43,100 nucleotides of DNA from Leifsonia sp. Leaf264 (GTDB taxonomy: Bacteria; Actinomycetota; Actinomycetes; Actinomycetales; Microbacteriaceae), in NCBI RefSeq assembly GCF_001422325.1, contig NZ_LMMR01000001.1:1047887-1090986 (forward strand), in the 5' to 3' direction. Of the stretch, positions 34,482-43,100 are shown one piece after another; within the stretch, counting starts at the first letter, position 1; each line of letters opens with the position of its first letter. The translations under genes were made by a program, and so were the position numbers. The notes under the pieces are model-generated. The model worked only from the letters and a program-made list of their open reading frames with translations. It did no database searches and was not told the DNA's origin.

Positions 34482-35457
34482 ACCCGCGCCAGTTCACGCC
34501 GGCCACGACGACGGCGGCGAGGGCCAGGACCGTGCCGATGACCGTCGACACGGCGAGGGAGCCGGCGTGTCCGGGCAGCATGGTGTCGATGACGATGGCA
34601 GCGACGAGCTGCCCGGCGATCATCGCCAGCGAGAGCACCAGGGTTCCGGTGATGCGCACGAGGACGGCGGCGGCCGCGATGAAGACGCAGCCGATGGCGC
34701 CGCCGAGGTAGAGCCACGGTTCGGTCGGCAGCGACTGCGGCCAACCGGCGGCGAGCCCGTGCACGAGGAAGGCGACCAGCAGCACGACGGTGCCGACCGC
34801 GAAGTTGCCGACGGTGGCGGTGAGGGCGCTCTCGGCGCTCTCGCGCACCCGTCCGTTCACGGCCTGCTGCCAGCCGAGGCCCAGGCCGGCGAAGAACGGC
34901 AGCAGCAGCATCCAGAGCGGCGCTGCCCCGCTCAACTGCGTCGCCACGGAGATGACGACGGCCAGGACCGCCAGCGCCGCACCCACGACGCGCGGCACCG
35001 TGAGGTGGCGGGGTCCGCCGGAGACCAGAGTCGTGCGATCGACGAGCAGTCCGCTGATCGACTGCCCGGCCACTGTGGCGACGCTGAACAGCGCGACGCC
35101 GAGGATGGCGGCGGTGAGTCCCTGGCTGAGCACGAGGAAGGCTCCGGCGGCACCGCCGCAGAGCATCCACCAGCGCAGGCGGCCGTCGCGGAGGGCTGCG
35201 GGCAGACGGCGGAATCCGGCTCGTCCCGGACGCCACACGGCGAGGGCGATCAGCAGGATGACGAGGCCGCTTCCGAAGGAGATCAGCGCGGCGGCGAAGC
35301 CGTCGTCGAGGCGTTGGCCGAGCTCGCCGTTGATGCGCGACTGCACGGCGACGAGGACACCGGCGACCACTGCACAGGCGATGGCGATGATGACGGCGGA
35401 ACGAGCCGGCGGGGAGTGAGTCGTCACCGTCTCGGCCGGCGCGTCCTGCTGTGTCAC
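34465..35457 (-). CDS. DMT-superfamily transporter, DUF606/YdcZ type
   Basis: 330 aa from a GTG at 35457 (TQQDAPAETV). Ten hydrophobic helices are spread over the sequence, in two related halves (ARSAVIIAIACAVVAGVLVAVQSRINGELGQ near the start and LLLPFFAGLGLGWQQAVNGRV in the middle, both with Gln/Arg-Asn-Gly). This Q-x-x-x-N-G-x-L signature is typical of DUF606 (YdcZ). The family is membrane-bound, with unknown substrate. The first 7 codons and the upstream region lie inside the 169-bp tandem duplication, so an extra copy of its start exists at 35607-35626. Confidence 0.92.
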   Translation of the reverse strand: MTQQDAPAETVTTHSPPARSAVIIAIACAVVAGVLVAVQSRINGELGQRLDDGFAAALISFGSGLVILLIALAVWRPGRAGFRRLPAALRDGRLRWWMLCGGAAGAFLVLSQGLTAAILGVALFSVATVAGQSISGLLVDRTTLVSGGPRHLTVPRVVGAALAVLAVVISVATQLSGAAPLWMLLLPFFAGLGLGWQQAVNGRVRESAESALTATVGNFAVGTVVLLVAFLVHGLAAGWPQSLPTEPWLYLGGAIGCVFIAAAAVLVRITGTLVLSLAMIAGQLVAAIVIDTMLPGHAGSLAVSTVIGTVLALAAVVVAGVNWRGFSRAA

Positions 35458-35477
35458 GTGTGTTTCCCCCGATCGGG

Positions 35478-35541
35478 GCCGGCTGCGGGACTCGAACCCG
35501 CAACCCCCGCTTTACAAGAGCGTTTGCTGCGGTCAACCGGC
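35478..35541 (-). pseudogene. tRNA-Thr(TGT)-like sequence lacking a D arm, copy A
   Basis: On the minus strand the acceptor GCCGGTT pairs with AGCCGGC, the T arm is GCGGG-TTCGAGT-CCCGC, and the anticodon loop is CTTGTAA (TGT). Only 64 nt long: the D arm is absent and the top pair of the anticodon stem is mismatched. It is either a decayed tRNA or the 3' half of a tRNA left as an attachment-site remnant. Confidence 0.6.
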
Positions 35542-35646
35542 GTGTCATACCTTGACCTACTCCACTGTGGTGCATTCTCATTTGCAATACCTCACCATCG
35601 TGTTACGGCGCGTCCTGCTGTGTCACGTGTGTTTCCCCCGATCGGG

Positions 35647-35709
35647 GCCGGCTGCGGACTCGAACCCGCAACCCCCGCTTTACAAGAGCGTTTGCTGCGG
35701 TCAACCGGC
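35647..35709 (-). pseudogene. tRNA-Thr(TGT)-like sequence, copy B with a broken T stem
   Basis: This is identical to copy A except that one base is missing in the T arm (CTGCGGACTCG instead of CTGCGGGACTCG), which breaks the 5-bp stem. It cannot be a working tRNA. Confidence 0.6.
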
Positions 35710-35800
35710 GTGTCATACCTTGACCTACTCCACTGTGGTGCATTCTCATTTGCAATACCTCACCATCGTGTTACTTGATTTGCGACGACAAGGGGCTCCA

Positions 35801-37213
35801 ATGAGGAAGTTCCTCTTCGATTCGAAGAGTGTCGACGAATTGCACCCGTCGCCAATTGTGAGCCTCCCCGATGGTATGCCCTTCGTTCTGGACGACGACT
35901 TCACGCCGGTCGAGGAGATCAACACCTGGCTACGCTCATTGCCCCAGCGAGGATGCCACTCGCCCCGCACGTGGAGCGGCTACGCCGATGACATGGTCGC
36001 GTGGGCTTCCTTCCTTCAGGAACGTGGCAAGTCAGTCTTTGACGGGCACGAAGCTCTCGTCCAAGCGGTCGCTCACTATCGGGAAGTCCGCTTGCAGGGC
36101 GACCCCGACGGACCATACGAGCTGCTCGGACCGAGCGCGTGGAACCGCGCAGTAGCGGCGATGGAGAACTTCTACTCCTGGGCCGTCGACGAACGCCGAA
36201 TCGTGTCGAAGCCGTTCAGATACAAGCAAGTGCGAGTGTGGCAAGGAGCACTCGCCGGCGAGACCACGCAGAAGAACCTCGCGAAAGCAAGAGCGGGCTC
36301 TCCCCTGGCGACGATGCGGCATCTCGAGGTCGACTTCGCTGACATGTTCATCAAGGTCGGCCTGGGTGGTGAGCTCCTCGACGGCAAGCCGGATCTAGCA
36401 TTTCGCGGTCGTCTCGCAGCCCGAAATCGAGCGTTGGGCCACCTGGTGAGGCGCAGCGGTCTTCGGCGCCAGGAGTTCTCCAACCTGCTCGTTTGGGAGG
36501 CACCTCGCTCCCTCGGTCCGTTCAGTGACTACGTGGCTCTGCCGGTCCCCCGGACCATCGCCAAAGGCGCTCATGCGCGTGTCACGTGGGCGACGAATGA
36601 GGCGCTGGACGATGTCCGAACCTACATCGATCTCGAACGTGCGATCGCAGTGGAAGGCTCCGACTGGATGCCTGAGCGGCCACTGCATGTAGAAGAGCCG
36701 AATGAGCGTTCTGGCATCGTCAATGGCCGACGGGTCACTTGGGCGAAACTCTCCATTCAGCACCGACGCCGGCTCGTTGGTCCCAACGGTGGAAGTGCTC
36801 TACTCTTCGTCAGCAGCAACGGTTCGCCGGTCGAGGAGAACAACTGGCGGTACACGTTCGCCTCGGCCGCCGACCGATGCCGGGAGTTCTCGCCGACATT
36901 CCCAGACGTCACTCCTCACATGTTGAGGCACACGTTTGCGATGGAAACGCTCACCGCCCTGACCCGGGGTGCCCTCTCCCGCGCTGAGCGCCTCGCACGA
37001 GTTACAGGTGCCGACCCTCTGCTGATGGCGATACTCCGTCGCAACGATCCGCTTCTGGTCCTGCGCGACCTTCTCGGTCACAAGCACCTGTCCACCACAG
37101 AGGTCTACCTCGCCGCCCAAGACGCCACTACCGTGCTCACGGACGCCGAGCTTGACCTCCTCGAAGAGCTAGACCTTGCCGAGACGGACGAACTCGACGA
37201 CTGGGCATCATGA
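35801..37213 (+). CDS. Tyrosine recombinase 1 (TnpA-like, complete catalytic set)
   Basis: 470 aa from the ATG at 35801, with AAGGGG ahead; the open frame extends upstream only because of the tandem repeat. The N-terminal ~200 residues include a SAM-like core-binding domain (RTWSGYADDMVAWASFLQERG). The catalytic domain shows Arg222 (SGLRRQE), His373 and Arg376 (HMLRHTF), His427 (LLGHKHL) and the nucleophile Tyr436 (TEVYLAA). This is the complete R-H-R-H-Y set. It cuts and rejoins DNA through a 3'-phosphotyrosine. The stop overlaps the next start (ATGA). Confidence 0.95.
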   Translation: MRKFLFDSKSVDELHPSPIVSLPDGMPFVLDDDFTPVEEINTWLRSLPQRGCHSPRTWSGYADDMVAWASFLQERGKSVFDGHEALVQAVAHYREVRLQGDPDGPYELLGPSAWNRAVAAMENFYSWAVDERRIVSKPFRYKQVRVWQGALAGETTQKNLAKARAGSPLATMRHLEVDFADMFIKVGLGGELLDGKPDLAFRGRLAARNRALGHLVRRSGLRRQEFSNLLVWEAPRSLGPFSDYVALPVPRTIAKGAHARVTWATNEALDDVRTYIDLERAIAVEGSDWMPERPLHVEEPNERSGIVNGRRVTWAKLSIQHRRRLVGPNGGSALLFVSSNGSPVEENNWRYTFASAADRCREFSPTFPDVTPHMLRHTFAMETLTALTRGALSRAERLARVTGADPLLMAILRRNDPLLVLRDLLGHKHLSTTEVYLAAQDATTVLTDAELDLLEELDLAETDELDDWAS

Positions 37214-38754
37214 CTGTCAGCCCCCAGCGCTTGGAAGAAGTGCCGCTGGGCCTCCGACTCGCCTTCCTCAACGATGACCCGCTCCACATTCCGCTCCACA
37301 GACTGCCCTGCCGGCCAGTCGTTCGATCCCTCGCGTTGGGTCTCCTCGACGCTACGAACGCGTTGGGCGACATCAAGACGAACTGGACGGCACGTCACTA
37401 CACCGCGGCAATCGCACGATTCGCCCGTTGGCTGGACAGCCAAGGGTTCGCTGGTGACCTTGACGAACTGACCGTCGACCATCTCTACGAGTTCGGACGG
37501 TATGAGGAGTCAAGTGTAGAGCGGCGGACCCGTGCTCTCCTCCGATCGGCTACACCCGCTGCAGGCGTCAAACGGCCCGTCACCGATGAAGTTCGGGAGC
37601 ATCTCAACGGTCCAGCGATCAGTCCACCGAAGCCGAAATCGACTCCTCTACGCGCTTATACAGCGGGCGAGTATCAACGTCTCGTTGCGGCTTGTCGTGC
37701 CGAGATTGAGTCGTGGGATCAAGTGCGTCCGCGGACGTTGCCTGATGCACGTGTCACTCTCGCTTTCCGCATCCTCCTGGGGCTTGAGCTCGGCTTGCCT
37801 CCTGAGTGCGTTGATGCGCTTCGCGTCGAGGACCTTCGCTGGCAAGGAGAACGTGACCTCCGTGTCGAGTTCGTGAAGCGACGCGCAGACGGGCCGCAAG
37901 CCAGGACGTTCCGAGCTTCTGGCCGATGGTCTGGTCCAAAACTCATCGAGCGATGGCTCCAAGCCTCCGCTCCGCTGCGCGTCAATGAAGATAGCGGCGC
38001 GATATGGATCTGGTCCCCACGGCCGGGTGAGGCTGAAACCGTCAGGTTCTCGGCAATCGCGTGGTGGGGGCGGCGCAAAGCGTTCCTCCAAGCTGCCGGC
38101 CTTGAAGACGACGACGGCCGACCACTCTCCCTCGACATGCGCAGGCTCAGGACGACGTGGACTGCACGAAAGTCCAAGTACTGGCACGGCGCGGTCACCG
38201 TCGATCCCAACCACAGCGCGAAGGTGGAGGGGGACAACTACCTGACGCGATCGGCCGACCTCGATGAAGTCGATACGACGATCGAGGGAGCCCAGCAGGA
38301 CCTCATGAGGCGTGCGCAAGCGGTCGCCCTAGTTGTGGCTGACGAGGACACACTTGCCGACGCGGTCGATGACCCCACGTTCGCAACGCAACGAGGGGAA
38401 GGCTCCAACAGCTCGGGCTGGGACATGTTCGCTGCAGCCTGTCGCGACCCGTTCTCTTCACCGTTCGGCCCGAAGGGTACCTTCTGCACCGCCGCCGTCT
38501 GGTCTTGTCTCGTGTGTCCGCTCGCAGTGATCACCCCATCCAAACTGCCAGCTCTGATGCGGCTCGAAGGGTACTTGCGTGACCAATCCGCAGCCGTCAC
38601 GCAGACGGAATGGCTACGCATCTACGGCCCGGCCTGGGTTCAGCTCACGACCCGCATCTTCCCGAAGTTCGCCGAATCGGTGATCGCCGAAGCAAGGCGG
38701 ATTGTCGAAGAGAACCTCGACCTGCCGATGCCAATTGAACCCTTGGAGTCATGA
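37210..38754 (+). CDS. Tyrosine recombinase 2 (catalytically degenerate)
   Basis: 514 aa. It begins at an ATG overlapping the first gene's stop and ends with another ATGA overlap. The N-terminal core-binding domain (WTARHYTAAIARFARWLDSQG) is clear. In the catalytic domain the box-I Arg is replaced by Pro197 (LGLPPECVDALR), the H-x-x-R box reads MRRLRTTW without His, and a Tyr (DNYLTRS) lies near the expected nucleophile position. Conserved Cys residues near the C-terminus (FCTAAVWSCLVCP) may form a metal-binding knuckle. It probably acts as an architectural partner rather than as an active nuclease. Confidence 0.85.
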   Translation: MTVSPQRLEEVPLGLRLAFLNDDPLHIPLHRLPCRPVVRSLALGLLDATNALGDIKTNWTARHYTAAIARFARWLDSQGFAGDLDELTVDHLYEFGRYEESSVERRTRALLRSATPAAGVKRPVTDEVREHLNGPAISPPKPKSTPLRAYTAGEYQRLVAACRAEIESWDQVRPRTLPDARVTLAFRILLGLELGLPPECVDALRVEDLRWQGERDLRVEFVKRRADGPQARTFRASGRWSGPKLIERWLQASAPLRVNEDSGAIWIWSPRPGEAETVRFSAIAWWGRRKAFLQAAGLEDDDGRPLSLDMRRLRTTWTARKSKYWHGAVTVDPNHSAKVEGDNYLTRSADLDEVDTTIEGAQQDLMRRAQAVALVVADEDTLADAVDDPTFATQRGEGSNSSGWDMFAAACRDPFSSPFGPKGTFCTAAVWSCLVCPLAVITPSKLPALMRLEGYLRDQSAAVTQTEWLRIYGPAWVQLTTRIFPKFAESVIAEARRIVEENLDLPMPIEPLES

Positions 38755-40784
38755 TGAGCCTCGACCGTGCACTCGAGCTAACCCAATCGCCTTCGGAACC
38801 GCCGTCCGCCTTGTTTGCGCCGGAGCTCGACGTGTACGCGATCCTCCCTGCCCGGGCGCCCTCCGGAACACCGCCCACACGTTTCGCCGACGCTCGATGG
38901 CGTCTCGACAGCATTCCCACCTGGCCCGCCTATAGCCCCCGATCCGACCTGATCTGGGACACCATCGAGAACCCGAACTGGCGCGTCAGCGCCAAGGAGG
39001 TGGCGCTGTTGCTCATGCAACCGAAGGAAGCCATCGAGCGGCGCCTTCCTCGGGCGCGACGAAAGCCATACCCGCCATGGGCGATGCCCTACCAGCGGCT
39101 CTCCTACTGGCGACGATGGTTCGCATTCCTGCAAAGCAACGGCCACACCAGTTTGGCGACAGTGACGCAGACCACCTGCGATGGGTTCCTCAAGACGATC
39201 ACTCCGGACTCGCGTCACATCGCCATCACCGCCATCCGCGCATTCGCGGACTACGGTCCCGCGCTCACCTACGACCGCTACGCAGCGGACTTCCGCCCTT
39301 GGGGAGACTTGAGCGCTAAGAGCGCATCGGAGCAGCCAGGGCTTGGCGACGCCGGCAACAAGACTCCTCCGATTCCGGATCGGGTATTCGCGCCGCTGTT
39401 GGCAGCGTGCCTACTCCTCGTCCAAGAACTCGGCCCGGACCTGATCGCCGCCCGCGCGGAGCTAGCGAGACTCACCGCGATCCCGTCATCACGGGGCAGT
39501 GTGCGAGTCGATTTCGATGCGCGACTCGACGACTACCTCGCTGCGGCCCGCCGGGATCAGCGAGCGATTCCGCAAGCGCAGCGTTCGTATGGTCGCTCAC
39601 ACGCCATCGACCTTCCCATGGTCGCTCTCAATATAAGCCTGCGCGATCAGAGCGCTCTACTGCGGCCAGATCGCTGGGCCAAGCTGACGCAGGCGGCCGA
39701 CGAACTCGGGCTGGCCCGGACGGGCCTGAATACCCCCGGGACACGCTTCTCCTTCAGCCGGTCGATGATTAGCCACATGACTCGAGTGGTGTCGACCGCC
39801 TGCTACGTCGTGGTCGCTGCCCTTTCCGGCATGCGCTCAAGCGAATTGGCCGCCATCGAGCGCTCGGCCTACCGCCGCGAAGTTCTCGACGGCGGAGTCG
39901 TCCGCTATCGCGTCCACAGCAAGCTCCTCAAAGGCGAACCGCCTGGGGGTCGCAGAGAGATCTGGACGGTGGTCGAGCCGGTCGCGGACGCCCTGCGCCT
40001 CGCGGAACAGCTTTCAGACGACAACCACCCGTTGAACGGCCAGTACTTCTCGGAGTCGATTTCCGAACTGCGCGGCTGGGTAAACGGCGCCGGCGCAGCG
40101 CACGGACTGGAACAGATCCCGTCCGACTGGGAGCTGCGCCCACGACAGTTCCGACGCACTCTGGCACGTGAACTCGCCTGGCGGCCCAACGGTGTGATCG
40201 CGGGCAAGATCCATCTAAAGCACGTATCGGTCGCTACGACCGAAGGGTATGCCGGTCGGCGCGGCGAATCCGCCAACGCATTCTTGGCCGAAGTGGAGTC
40301 CGAACGACGGCGAGCTGCCGAACATGAGGTGCGGGTCGTCATCGAAGCGGTCGAACGTGGTGAGCCTGTTGCCGGTCTTGGCGCACGCTCCCTAGTAGCC
40401 GCAGTGGCCGCGCTGCCCGATGCGACCACAGACGGGCCGCAAGTGCGCCTCCGCGACGATGCCCTCGTTGCGCTCACTCGCGCACGCGCTGACACCCTCC
40501 ACATCACGCCGCTCGTGCACTGTTGGTTCACCGATCCCGAACGCGCGCGGTGTCTACGTGGAGTCGCCGACAAGAGCCGACCTATCGTCGGATCATGTCA
40601 ACCCGACCTGTGCGCTCAAGCGACGATCCACGACAAGCATGCCCCCATCTGGGTATCCGGAATTGAGGATCTGCGGGCAACTCTGAAGGACATTCGGGTA
40701 CCTAAGGGCGAGCGAGAGCGACTGGCCGCGAAAGCCCAACGCATGGAAGAAACGATCGCACCCGTCGTGGGGAGGATGCAGTGA
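38751..40784 (+). CDS. Tyrosine recombinase 3 (TnpB-like)
   Basis: 677 aa, near the size of Tn554 TnpB (630 aa). The core-binding part (RLSYWRRWFAFLQSNGHTSLATV) is followed by a catalytic domain with Arg362 (LSGMRSSEL), Arg468 in RQFRRTLARE (the box-II His is replaced by Arg465), His491 (IHLKHVS) and nucleophile Tyr500 (TTEGYAG). The C-terminal ~150 residues contain HCWFTDPERARCLRG and GSCQPDLCAQA, a Cys/His-rich zinc-binding-like region also typical of TnpB. It is probably active together with recombinase 1. Both start and stop overlap neighbours by 4 bp. Confidence 0.9.
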   Translation: MMSLDRALELTQSPSEPPSALFAPELDVYAILPARAPSGTPPTRFADARWRLDSIPTWPAYSPRSDLIWDTIENPNWRVSAKEVALLLMQPKEAIERRLPRARRKPYPPWAMPYQRLSYWRRWFAFLQSNGHTSLATVTQTTCDGFLKTITPDSRHIAITAIRAFADYGPALTYDRYAADFRPWGDLSAKSASEQPGLGDAGNKTPPIPDRVFAPLLAACLLLVQELGPDLIAARAELARLTAIPSSRGSVRVDFDARLDDYLAAARRDQRAIPQAQRSYGRSHAIDLPMVALNISLRDQSALLRPDRWAKLTQAADELGLARTGLNTPGTRFSFSRSMISHMTRVVSTACYVVVAALSGMRSSELAAIERSAYRREVLDGGVVRYRVHSKLLKGEPPGGRREIWTVVEPVADALRLAEQLSDDNHPLNGQYFSESISELRGWVNGAGAAHGLEQIPSDWELRPRQFRRTLARELAWRPNGVIAGKIHLKHVSVATTEGYAGRRGESANAFLAEVESERRRAAEHEVRVVIEAVERGEPVAGLGARSLVAAVAALPDATTDGPQVRLRDDALVALTRARADTLHITPLVHCWFTDPERARCLRGVADKSRPIVGSCQPDLCAQATIHDKHAPIWVSGIEDLRATLKDIRVPKGERERLAAKAQRMEETIAPVVGRMQ

Positions 40785-41227
40785 ACGAACCATCCAGCTC
40801 GGTTACGGAGCGAAATCAACGGCGGCTTCGGGACGCCGCAGAGCGGCTTCTTGCCGGGCGCGCCACCGTTTCGAACGGGAAGCTCACACTCAAATCGTTG
40901 GCTGAGGAAGCCGGAGTACCGCGTCCGTACCTCTACAGGGCTGAGTACAAATCCATCGCGGAGGACTTCGAGGAGCAAACCCTTCGAATCCAGATGCGGG
41001 GCACCTCACCGGACCCGAGGGTGGCCGAAATCGAGCACCTTCGCTCTGAGCTGGCGAAAGTTCGCGGACGAGCCAAACGCCATCACGACGACCTCGTAGA
41101 GGCCCGGAAGGACGTGAAGAAGGCTGCGACTCAGATCGCTTACCTGACCGAGCAGACCAGGGCACTGCGTGAGGAACTCAATGCCGCCCAGAACGTCGTC
41201 AGCCTCGCCGGGCGGGCGAAGGGCTGA
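40781..41227 (+). CDS. TnpC-like HTH/coiled-coil protein (DUF6262 type)
   Basis: 148 aa from a GTG overlapping the previous stop (GTGA). The N-terminal part (LTLKSLAEEAGVPRPYLYRAEYKSI) is a helix-turn-helix. Residues 75-140 form a coiled coil (EIEHLRSELAKVRGRAKRHHDDL, then ALREELNAAQNVV). The size and architecture match TnpC of Tn554 (125 aa) and the DUF6262 family found next to such recombinases. In Tn554, TnpC affects the efficiency and orientation of insertion without being essential. It is the last gene of the operon. Confidence 0.85.
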   Translation: MNEPSSSVTERNQRRLRDAAERLLAGRATVSNGKLTLKSLAEEAGVPRPYLYRAEYKSIAEDFEEQTLRIQMRGTSPDPRVAEIEHLRSELAKVRGRAKRHHDDLVEARKDVKKAATQIAYLTEQTRALREELNAAQNVVSLAGRAKG

Positions 41228-41243
41228 CTGCGGGCGTGAAGGT

Positions 41244-41264
41244 GTCGGTCAACACCGCACCGAC
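41244..41264 (+). terminator. Weak hairpin after the recombinase operon
   Basis: GTCGGT (41244-41249) and ACCGAC (41259-41264) enclose a 9-nt loop, 17 bp after the last stop. No T-tract follows, so it may be a structural end feature of the element rather than a terminator. Confidence 0.3.
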
Positions 41265-41409
41265 GACCGCGGCGAGGGGCGGCGCCGTGGGCCGTCATCG
41301 AGTGGGCGGGCATTCACGCGTCAGTAAGAAACGCCCTCGACTTACCTGCCGACCCCAGACAGGATAGGAGGACGTTCCCAGACTGCGGGGACACGAGATG
41401 GGGGCGTAG

Positions 41410-42780
41410 ATGTCGACAACTGTTCCGGGGCCGGTTTCAGGCACCACGATGACGGATGCGTACGTAAAGGCTGTTGGCCGGTTCGCATATGTGTGGGGCT
41501 GGCCGATGGTGTCGATGATCAACCGCCGCACAGGCCTCACCTCCGTACCGGAGCCTGGAATGCGCGGAGGAGTCCTACCGAACGCTCCAGTCGGTCGGGT
41601 CTGCATGATGACCGACTACATCGCGCCAAGTCAGCGTTTCGTCGCCTGCACGAACCAGGACGTCCTCTACGGTTTCGGATTCGGAAGCCTCGACGAGCAG
41701 CCGGCCGTCTTCCAGATCCCCGACTTCGGCGATCGCTTCTGGGTGGCCGCCGCATGGGATCACCGCACGGACTCGTTCGCGCAGATGGGCACGCAGTACG
41801 GAACCGAGGCCGGCTTCTACGCCGTTGTGGGACCGAACTGGAACGGCGAGATTCCCGACGGGATCACCGGCGTCTTCCGCTCGCCGACTGCACTCGCCGC
41901 CTTCTGCCCGCGGGTCTTCATCGAGGACACGGCCGAAGACCGAGCCGCGGTTGCCGCCCTGATCCCGAAGGTGAACATCTACCCGCTCGACGAGTTCGAC
42001 GGCACAGTGCACGAGTACGACTGGGCCAACGTGCCCAGCTTCCCGGTGCCGGAAGCGGCAGCGGAGGGGGAGATCCACTGGGTGAACCCAGACACCTTCT
42101 TCGACCAGCTCGTCGACGTGCTCGCAACAGTGCCTCCCCTCCCGGGCGAGGAAGCTCTGTATCAGCAGTTCAGCGCCCTGCTCGATGCTGCAGCCGCTGA
42201 TTCATCGGTGAAGTCGGCGCTGGTCGAAGCGGCCCGTGAAGCGGAACAGGAATTGATCACCCCGCTGCTTCGCTGGGAGCACAACGGTCCTGAAGCTGGC
42301 AACGGATGGTACTCACCGAAGAACAACTCGGCGTTCGGCACCGACTACCTCACCCGCACGGCGATCGCCCGCTCGAACATGTTCGAGAACGCGCCCCAGG
42401 AGACGAAGTACATCTTCACCGACACGGACGTCGACGGGAACCAACTCGACGGCACCCACAGCTACACGGTCACCTTCGCCGCCGGCGAACTTCCGCCGGT
42501 GGACGGCTTCTTCTCCCTCACCCTGTACAACCAGCACCACTTCTATTACGAGAACGAACTGGGCCGGTACTCCCTCGGTACCAAGAACCCGGACCTGCAG
42601 TTCGGTAACGGCGGCTCCTTAACCATCTACGTCGGCAACGAAAAGCCCGCCGATGCACCCGCGAGTAACTGGCTGCCAGCTCCTGCCGAAGCGTTCTCCG
42701 TGTACATCCGCGCCTACTGGCCGAAGCAGGCGATCATCGATGGCACATGGCTGCCGCCCAAGGTGGAACGCGTCAGCTAG
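41410..42780 (+). CDS. DUF1254/DUF1214 protein
   Basis: 456 aa, with GGGGGCGTAG before the ATG. The N-terminal half is DUF1254 (YVKAVGRFAYVWGWPMVSMINRR, VGRVCMMTDYIAPSQRFVACTNQDVLYGFGF, FWVAAAWDHRTDSFAQMGTQYG). The C-terminal half is DUF1214 (GTHSYTVTFAAGELPPVDGFFSLTLYN, YSLGTKNPDLQFGNGGSLTIYVG, FSVYIRAYWPKQAI). Such fusions are common, have a jelly-roll-like fold and no known function. Unlike many homologues it has no signal peptide, so it is probably cytoplasmic. It follows the recombinase operon, and may belong to the ordinary chromosome or to cargo. Confidence 0.9.
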   Translation: MSTTVPGPVSGTTMTDAYVKAVGRFAYVWGWPMVSMINRRTGLTSVPEPGMRGGVLPNAPVGRVCMMTDYIAPSQRFVACTNQDVLYGFGFGSLDEQPAVFQIPDFGDRFWVAAAWDHRTDSFAQMGTQYGTEAGFYAVVGPNWNGEIPDGITGVFRSPTALAAFCPRVFIEDTAEDRAAVAALIPKVNIYPLDEFDGTVHEYDWANVPSFPVPEAAAEGEIHWVNPDTFFDQLVDVLATVPPLPGEEALYQQFSALLDAAAADSSVKSALVEAAREAEQELITPLLRWEHNGPEAGNGWYSPKNNSAFGTDYLTRTAIARSNMFENAPQETKYIFTDTDVDGNQLDGTHSYTVTFAAGELPPVDGFFSLTLYNQHHFYYENELGRYSLGTKNPDLQFGNGGSLTIYVGNEKPADAPASNWLPAPAEAFSVYIRAYWPKQAIIDGTWLPPKVERVS

Positions 42781-42910
42781 GTCGCGCGTCTGGATCTCGC
42801 TCAGGATCTCCGTACGCCCGATCAATGCATTCGCGCGCGCGAGCCTCAGAGGCTTGTCCCATCTACGACTCGCCGAAATCACTCGGATTTGCCGAAGTGA
42901 GAGAGCTGAG

Positions 42911-42981
42911 AGCCGGTGGCGGGAATCGAACCCGCGACAACTGTTTACAAGACAGCCGCGTTACCACTACGCCACACCGGC
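42911..42981 (-). tRNA. tRNA-Thr (anticodon TGT)
   Basis: The minus strand gives a complete 71-nt cloverleaf: acceptor GCCGGTG/CACCGGC, D stem GCGT/ACGC, anticodon stem GCTGT/ACAGT with loop CTTGTAA (TGT), T arm GCGGG-TTCGATT-CCCGC, discriminator T. CCA is not encoded. It is clearly different in sequence from the tRNA-like copies at 35478-35709 although both carry TGT. Confidence 0.93.
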
Positions 42982-43100
42982 AGAAACCACGAAGAGTGTT
43001 ACACACGCCTCCTGGCGTCGAATATTCAGTTGTGGGGTATCGCGCTTCTCTTGGTGACACGGCGGCACTGTTACACGCCATTTCCGCAGCAAAAGAGCGG

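Follow-up and report, generated by a model that had tools for sequence, protein, structure and literature searches.

A probable SE-like tyrosine-recombinase element that splits tRNA-Thr(UGU) genes and carries one of its own in Leifsonia sp. Leaf264

The stretch of DNA analysed here (the window) is the 43,100-nt end of contig C1 in the genome assembly of Leifsonia sp. Leaf264 (4.54 Mb in 11 contigs, termed G000 below). It contains an element of 7403 bp that lies within a split host tRNA-Thr(UGU) gene and comprises a four-gene operon for three recombinase-type proteins and a TnpC-like protein, a cargo gene and an intact tRNA gene. The operon consists of the following genes, with protein lengths in amino acids (aa):

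35801..37213, + strand: gene A (IntA-like), 470 aa; open reading frame (ORF) call, Pfam and alignment
37210..38754, + strand: gene B (Tfp-like), 514 aa; ORF call and alignment
38751..40784, + strand: gene C (IntB-like), 677 aa; ORF call and alignment
40781..41227, + strand: gene D (Srap/TnpC-like), 148 aa; ORF call, weak Pfam match and profile match

The ORFs at 35801-41227 bore out the original prediction, made from the letters of the window, of recombinases of 470, 514 and 677 aa and a TnpC-like protein that overlap by 4 bp at every junction. The A/B, B/C and C/D junctions read ATCATGACTG, GTCATGATGA and GCAGTGAACG, with the overlaps ATGA, ATGA and GTGA, respectively. The product of gene A was identified as a tyrosine recombinase, with both PF00589 and PF02899 exceeding the Pfam cut-offs, and has the catalytic residues R222, K255, H373, R376, H427 and Y436. 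No Pfam family reached the cut-off for B and no Pfam match whatever was found for C; NCBIfam and PHROGs added recombinase matches for A, a weak integrase match for C and nothing else. Active-site residues R362, K394, R468, H491 and Y500 were found in C, where R465 replaces the histidine of the HxxR motif. Alignment of B with 25 relatives revealed that the first active-site arginine and the HxxR histidine are absent and that a cysteine cluster is located in the C-terminal part. The D protein has a helix-turn-helix-like N-terminal part and a coiled coil, and matched DUF6262 at E 0.01, which is under the Pfam cut-off; its Marinobacter counterpart, located beside the same trio of genes, is annotated as DUF6262 and matches the D profile.

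The original prediction had placed the element at 35710..41264. The real element extends from 35691 to 43093 and, together with its junctions, includes the following features:

35691..43093, + strand: whole element, 7403 bp, starting with TTTGCTGCGG and finishing with CCGCAGCAAA; defined by the empty sites, the right flank and the second insertion
35691..35713, + strand: left terminal repeat, 23 nt, TTTGCTGCGG..GGCGTGT; imperfect inverted repeat of the right end
43073..43093, - strand: right terminal repeat, 21 nt
35685..35690, no strand: 6-bp spacer AGAGCG at attL, with a second occurrence at 35517-35522 in the duplicated copy
43094..43099, no strand: 6-bp spacer AGAGCG at attR, one base short of the window end
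35477..35522, - strand: chromosomal tRNA-Thr(UGU), 3' half of the split gene together with the spacer; a second copy, one base shorter, at about 35646-35690
35438..35774, no strand: tandem duplication of the left junction with a period of 168-169 bp, half chromosome and half element
41410..42780, + strand: cargo gene, 456 aa, with DUF1254 (105.7 bits) and DUF1214 (107.7 bits) above the cut-offs
42910..42981, - strand: intact tRNA-Thr(UGU) of the element, called by ARAGORN; RF00005 at 73.4 bits

The mapping of the ends against insertion-free relatives, which had been proposed as a check, placed both of them with the help of two genomes of the same genus (G001 and G002) and of contig C10. Both genomes have the same left neighbours as the window and an intact tRNA-Thr(UGU) beside a DMT_YdcZ-type transporter gene, and the match between the window and these genomes breaks off within the anticodon arm of this tRNA. 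The end of C10 has 114 exact bases in common with the end of C1 and then continues into the native 5' half of the tRNA. This overlap and the empty sites together set the boundaries of the element at 35691-43093; the overlap also rules out that the element continues beyond the contig end. When the chromosomal flanks were joined, ARAGORN called a tRNA-Thr(TGT), and the joined flanks were identical to the empty sites at 195/214 (G001) and 193/211 (G002) aligned positions. The terminal inverted repeats contain 10 exact bp plus GGCGTGT within their 23 and 21 nt, and one shuffle in 5000 reached the score of their local alignment. The 6 bp of the crossover correspond to tRNA nucleotides 28-33, immediately 5' of the anticodon. 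The 3' half of the split host tRNA is located at the A-proximal end of the element and the 5' half at the opposite end, and the tRNA is not rebuilt.

The tRNA copy at the left junction was not called by ARAGORN and scored 32.6 bits against RF00005, versus 73.4 bits for the tRNA of the element. As a separate observation, the chimeric left junction at 35477-35541 is tRNA-like by this score (gathering threshold 29), and the left end of the element supplies a match at 7/7 positions to the chromosomal acceptor stem, as 98 of 20,000 shuffles do, and at only 5/7 to the plasmid one; the left end is perhaps a decayed 5' half that formerly rebuilt the tRNA. The two copies of the duplicated left junction differ by 1 bp, in the T-arm of the tRNA, and the junction on contig C5 has no such duplication. 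The tandem duplication is probably an assembly overlap.

A second insertion was found on contig C5 (701 kb), whose start contains the final 107 bp of the element and whose end contains the initial 88 bp. The flanks on C5 are the halves of another tRNA-Thr(UGU) cut at the identical point, and ARAGORN again called a tRNA-Thr(TGT) when they were joined. AGAGCG is present at both ends at both insertion sites, and the ends of the two insertions are identical over their visible portions. As both targets have the identical 6 bp, a rule of donor-derived spacers is not readable from these sites. The start of C5 gave only short matches to G001 and G002; an 8-kb query from this region had 12-14% in common with three Curtobacterium plasmids of 546-608 kb, and in the two of these that are annotated the shared DNA is an RNA-ligase gene. 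C5 is probably a megaplasmid; alternatively, it may be part of a cointegrate. An array of 14 tRNA genes occupies part of the first 12 kb of C5 (L048 5894-11954), near the sequence shared with Curtobacterium.

The cargo gene and the intact tRNA-Thr(UGU) are located between the operon and the right end, so the earlier suggestion of an element with no cargo had to be abandoned. The tRNA is separated from the right end by 112 bp and is oriented like the split host tRNA, and its anticodon stem is GCTGT/ACAGT versus CCGCT/AGCGG in both targets. ACA codons require a UGU tRNA. A pattern search of the assembly located the UGU tRNA-Thr at four places in G000, namely the chromosomal half (twice, through the duplication), the C5 half and the tRNA of the element, and at one place each in G001 and G002; no unsplit tRNA-Thr(UGU) besides that of the element was found by this search in G000. 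The tRNA at 42910-42981 was also considered as a rebuilt host tRNA; this was rejected, since only 55/75 aligned positions match the chromosomal tRNA, the anticodon stem is different and the native 5' half is located on C10.

In order to place the operon among its relatives, genomes and plasmid records were searched with B and C; the genome-search counts take in the copy in the window. B was matched in 8/398 genomes of the family and the B profile in 7/396 genomes of the phylum. C was matched in 3/396 genomes of the order at E 1e-10 and in 237 of 72,556 plasmid records at E 0.01, with Streptomyces (69), Agrobacterium (28) and Sphingobium (22) at the top. The relatives belong chiefly to the Actinomycetota and Alphaproteobacteria. 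A scan of genome contigs with B yielded no confirmed relative, and no such operon was visible in the annotation of the first 50 kb of pAQU1. Thirty loci were fetched, and the matches G536 and G430 (B-profile search) and L117 and L118 (C search) lie outside this set. The trio A-B-C was adjacent and in the same order in 26 of the 30 loci (17/17 plasmid loci and 9/13 loci from the genome searches), and because of this its arrangement is not due to chance. No full trio was obtained from L072, L073, L087 and L088, the last of which has two weakly matching adjacent ORFs and may belong to the family as a distant member. D was present in 23 of the 25 distinct loci. The distances of A, B, C and D correlate among 24 loci (r 0.82-0.95), with 0 of 2000 permutations as high. 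The co-occurrence check proposed at the outset thus upheld the view of a transposon-like unit inherited as a set. L068 was excluded from the alignments as a repeat of L067, and gene B of L099 was placed by position at first and later matched at 22 bits. L067 and L068 both come from genome G144, with trio ORFs of the same lengths and the same scores, and are probably two copies in that genome.

The catalytic residues R, K, H, R, H and Y of A were kept in 25 of 26 alignment rows; in L103 gene A ends early. In B, an arginine at the first position occurred in 0/26 rows, the C-terminal cysteine cluster was common, and one arginine and one tyrosine were found near the expected places. The prediction that one recombinase is degenerate therefore holds for B, in 26/26 aligned rows. 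In the 26-row alignment of C, the R, the K, the arginine of HxxR, the His and the Tyr were kept. Judged by these residues, C retains the active-site layout and B has partly lost it. Comparing the profiles of B or C with that of A, each built from six rows, had no outcome. For the terminal repeats of the relatives the best scores were 9-14 (10 for the window), which was judged to be at chance level, and the ends of the relatives are unmapped.

The element was compared with named systems as these are described in the papers cited. The operon of SEs encodes IntA, a degenerate Tfp, a large IntB and Srap, and the survey of them found SEs in Gammaproteobacteria only, with the proviso that distant members may have been overlooked (PMC10214605). 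SEs have imperfect terminal inverted repeats of 13-19 bp, and RHRY is present in IntA and IntB (PMC10214605, PMC9345347). They are further characterised by a strand-biased circle and by leaving no empty site. The element resembles them in the order of an active recombinase, a degenerate second, a large recombinase and a TnpC-like fourth protein, in its short imperfect inverted repeats (at 23/21 nt slightly above that range), in the 6-bp spacer at both ends with few preferred sites, and in having a copy on the chromosome and, probably, on a plasmid. It differs in that RHRY is incomplete in C (R465 for His), though present in A, in its host outside the Gammaproteobacteria, and in having a tRNA target together with its own tRNA; the word "tRNA" is absent from the main text of PMC10214605. 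Family profiles made with outgroups left out matched an Alteromonas operon of SE order, unconfirmed as a named SE, at 54, 22, 133 and 33 bits, and all four genes in 4/4 further operons from Pseudomonas, Cupriavidus, Pseudoalteromonas and Marinobacter. Matches of these profiles outside and inside the Gammaproteobacteria indicate that the architecture is wider than this class in both directions. Because of the missing HxxR histidine in C and the host, the element is called SE-like and not SE.

The original prediction had seen in the operon a combination of the Tn554 and RIT layouts. Tn554 has recombinases plus TnpC, site specificity and a 6-bp footprint (as given in PMC10214605) like the element; by description it consists of TnpA, TnpB and TnpC only, whereas the element has the additional gene B. 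RITs likewise have three recombinase genes in a row, but their recombinases are 315-410 aa long, all with the catalytic tyrosine, and a fourth gene is missing (PMC10214605), in contrast to the 470, 514 and 677 aa plus D found here, where B is not of the catalytic RIT type. Moreover, a presumed RIT in L102 (three annotated integrase genes) scored 2.4-27.8 bits against the A, B and C profiles. A Tn554-plus-one or RIT hybrid was therefore rejected as the family, as SEs and GInts already cover the four-gene layout and B is not RIT-type. For the same reason the proposed distinct class stands only in part: the four-gene kind already carries names (GInts, PMC5385486; SEs, PMC10214605), while for the actinobacterial branch no name was found in the literature searched, in which subscription papers and preprints were mostly outside reach.

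A parallel to the tRNA was found in tRNA-dependent lysogeny of actinobacteriophages, which uses a single phage integrase and for which the need of the tRNA has been demonstrated (PMC10865867). Common to both are a short core in a host tRNA that is not rebuilt, with split halves left behind, and the carriage of a tRNA of the same isotype, here the tRNA-Thr(UGU) at 42910-42981. The element differs in being a four-protein transposon instead of a phage, and its need for the tRNA is a prediction.

Taken together, we read the element, with a probability of roughly 0.8, as a site-specific SE-like tyrosine-recombinase element of the IntA-Tfp-IntB-Srap type with tRNA replacement. It is of a known kind, new in its host range and in tRNA replacement, and by analogy the closest phage parallel would be tRNA-dependent lysogeny, in that the element may best be read as destroying the host tRNA and supplying its own (PMC10865867). 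The gene content, the junctions, the two tRNAs split alike, both restored by joining the flanks, and the lack of a further unsplit UGU tRNA-Thr in the pattern search were observed directly; we infer activity, the role of each protein, transcription and the need for the element tRNA. With B, which is catalytically degenerate, and the TnpC-like D to arrange them, A and C would join a circular form of the element, with the ends around the 6-bp spacer, to tRNA-Thr(UGU) genes at their anticodon arm. The crossover would run across the 6 bp just 5' of the anticodon, and the insertion would break the host tRNA without reconstituting it. The complete tRNA-Thr(UGU) of the element would serve the host yet escape targeting, since its anticodon stem differs from that of the target. 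The promoter of the split host tRNA may drive the element tRNA, which by its position and orientation inside the right end could be reached from there. Unless the element were excised exactly, its loss would then strip the cell of UGU tRNA-Thr. We also lean, if only slightly, towards the view that an SE-type branch for which no name was found exists in Actinomycetota and Alphaproteobacteria, and that this one member has become truly tRNA-dependent, splitting the tRNA-Thr(UGU) genes of chromosome and megaplasmid in the anticodon arm, with a target-proof tRNA near the host promoter and a host made dependent on it.

Several points weigh against this interpretation. The evidence base is one element with two insertions in one strain and consists of sequence data only, and the second copy is visible by its outer 88 + 107 bp only. 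The pattern search might overlook an unusual UGU tRNA-Thr, and no match to a sigma-70-type promoter was found in 42700-43100. A replacement tRNA was found in 0 of the 25 other distinct trio loci, where the only ARAGORN calls were a tRNA-Val (L086) and a tmRNA next to L071. D was absent from L101 and L102 in the 0.6-0.7 kb searched downstream of the trio, which is present in both. The HxxR histidine of C occurs in 6/26 rows and is missing from 20/26, with Arg in the window, so that strict RHRY is unmet.

Among the alternatives, the one that survives best, though unlikely, is that the tRNA is a passenger on which the host does not depend, because a UGU tRNA-Thr was missed or another tRNA covers the codon. 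The assembly has 11 contigs and collapses repeats; on the other hand, each of the two congeners has a single such gene, no other unsplit copy was found in G000, and the tRNA of the element is intact at 73.4 bits and without the target sequence. It is slightly less likely still that the element is an inactive relic of an SE-like element: the missing HxxR histidine of C would fit, whereas the four intact frames with coupled starts, the kept active-site residues of A and two insertions with ends identical as far as visible speak against a relic. We consider it improbable that the element is an actinobacterial GInt with the tRNA as incidental cargo. GInts are ginABCD islands with flank repeats of 10-17 nt and protein genes as reported targets, and like the element they have a four-gene operon of three recombinase-type proteins and a small TnpC-like fourth, site specificity and cargo past the fourth gene (PMC5385486). 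However, the protein without the first Arg and RHRY is the third there (GinC) and the second here, as judged by the published description (PMC5385486, PMC10214605), and the word "tRNA" is absent from the main text of PMC5385486. An assembly artefact behind both the split tRNA and the double insertion, as the left-junction tandem duplication with its 1-bp difference, a 39-bp duplication at the start of C5 and the termination of C1, C5 and C10 in the element might suggest, is very improbable, since the four flanks can be matched up to give two complete tRNA-Thr genes with the same crossover point and one restored tRNA-Thr agrees with the empty site of two other genomes.

If the SE-like reading is true, a transposon class that is poorly understood and has been described as nesting in Gammaproteobacteria would gain a wider host range, and the relatives would offer material for learning the roles of the degenerate recombinase and the TnpC-like protein. 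The exchange of a host tRNA for a carried one at the site of insertion, until now described for certain bacterial viruses, would then extend beyond phages. The positions of the target, the spacer, the ends and the empty site are known to the exact base, so how a four-protein system chooses its site is directly testable.

Some further observations were made on the surroundings of the relatives. In L086 (12009-14792) the operon directly adjoins a truncated second gene A, and the flank stops in the HxLRH codons, which looks like the insertion of one element into another's integrase. The sequence just before the element in both L067 and L104, where the element ends are unmapped, reads as encoding NPPF, the methyltransferase motif, and a target motif in common is possible. 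In L071 (4873-5242) a tmRNA gene stops 176 bp ahead of gene A. The trios of L101 and L102 are flanked by zincin/ArdC-like genes, and in L102 three more integrase genes follow the trio. The plasmid relatives L092, L095 and L104 adjoin restriction-modification, methyltransferase or helicase genes.

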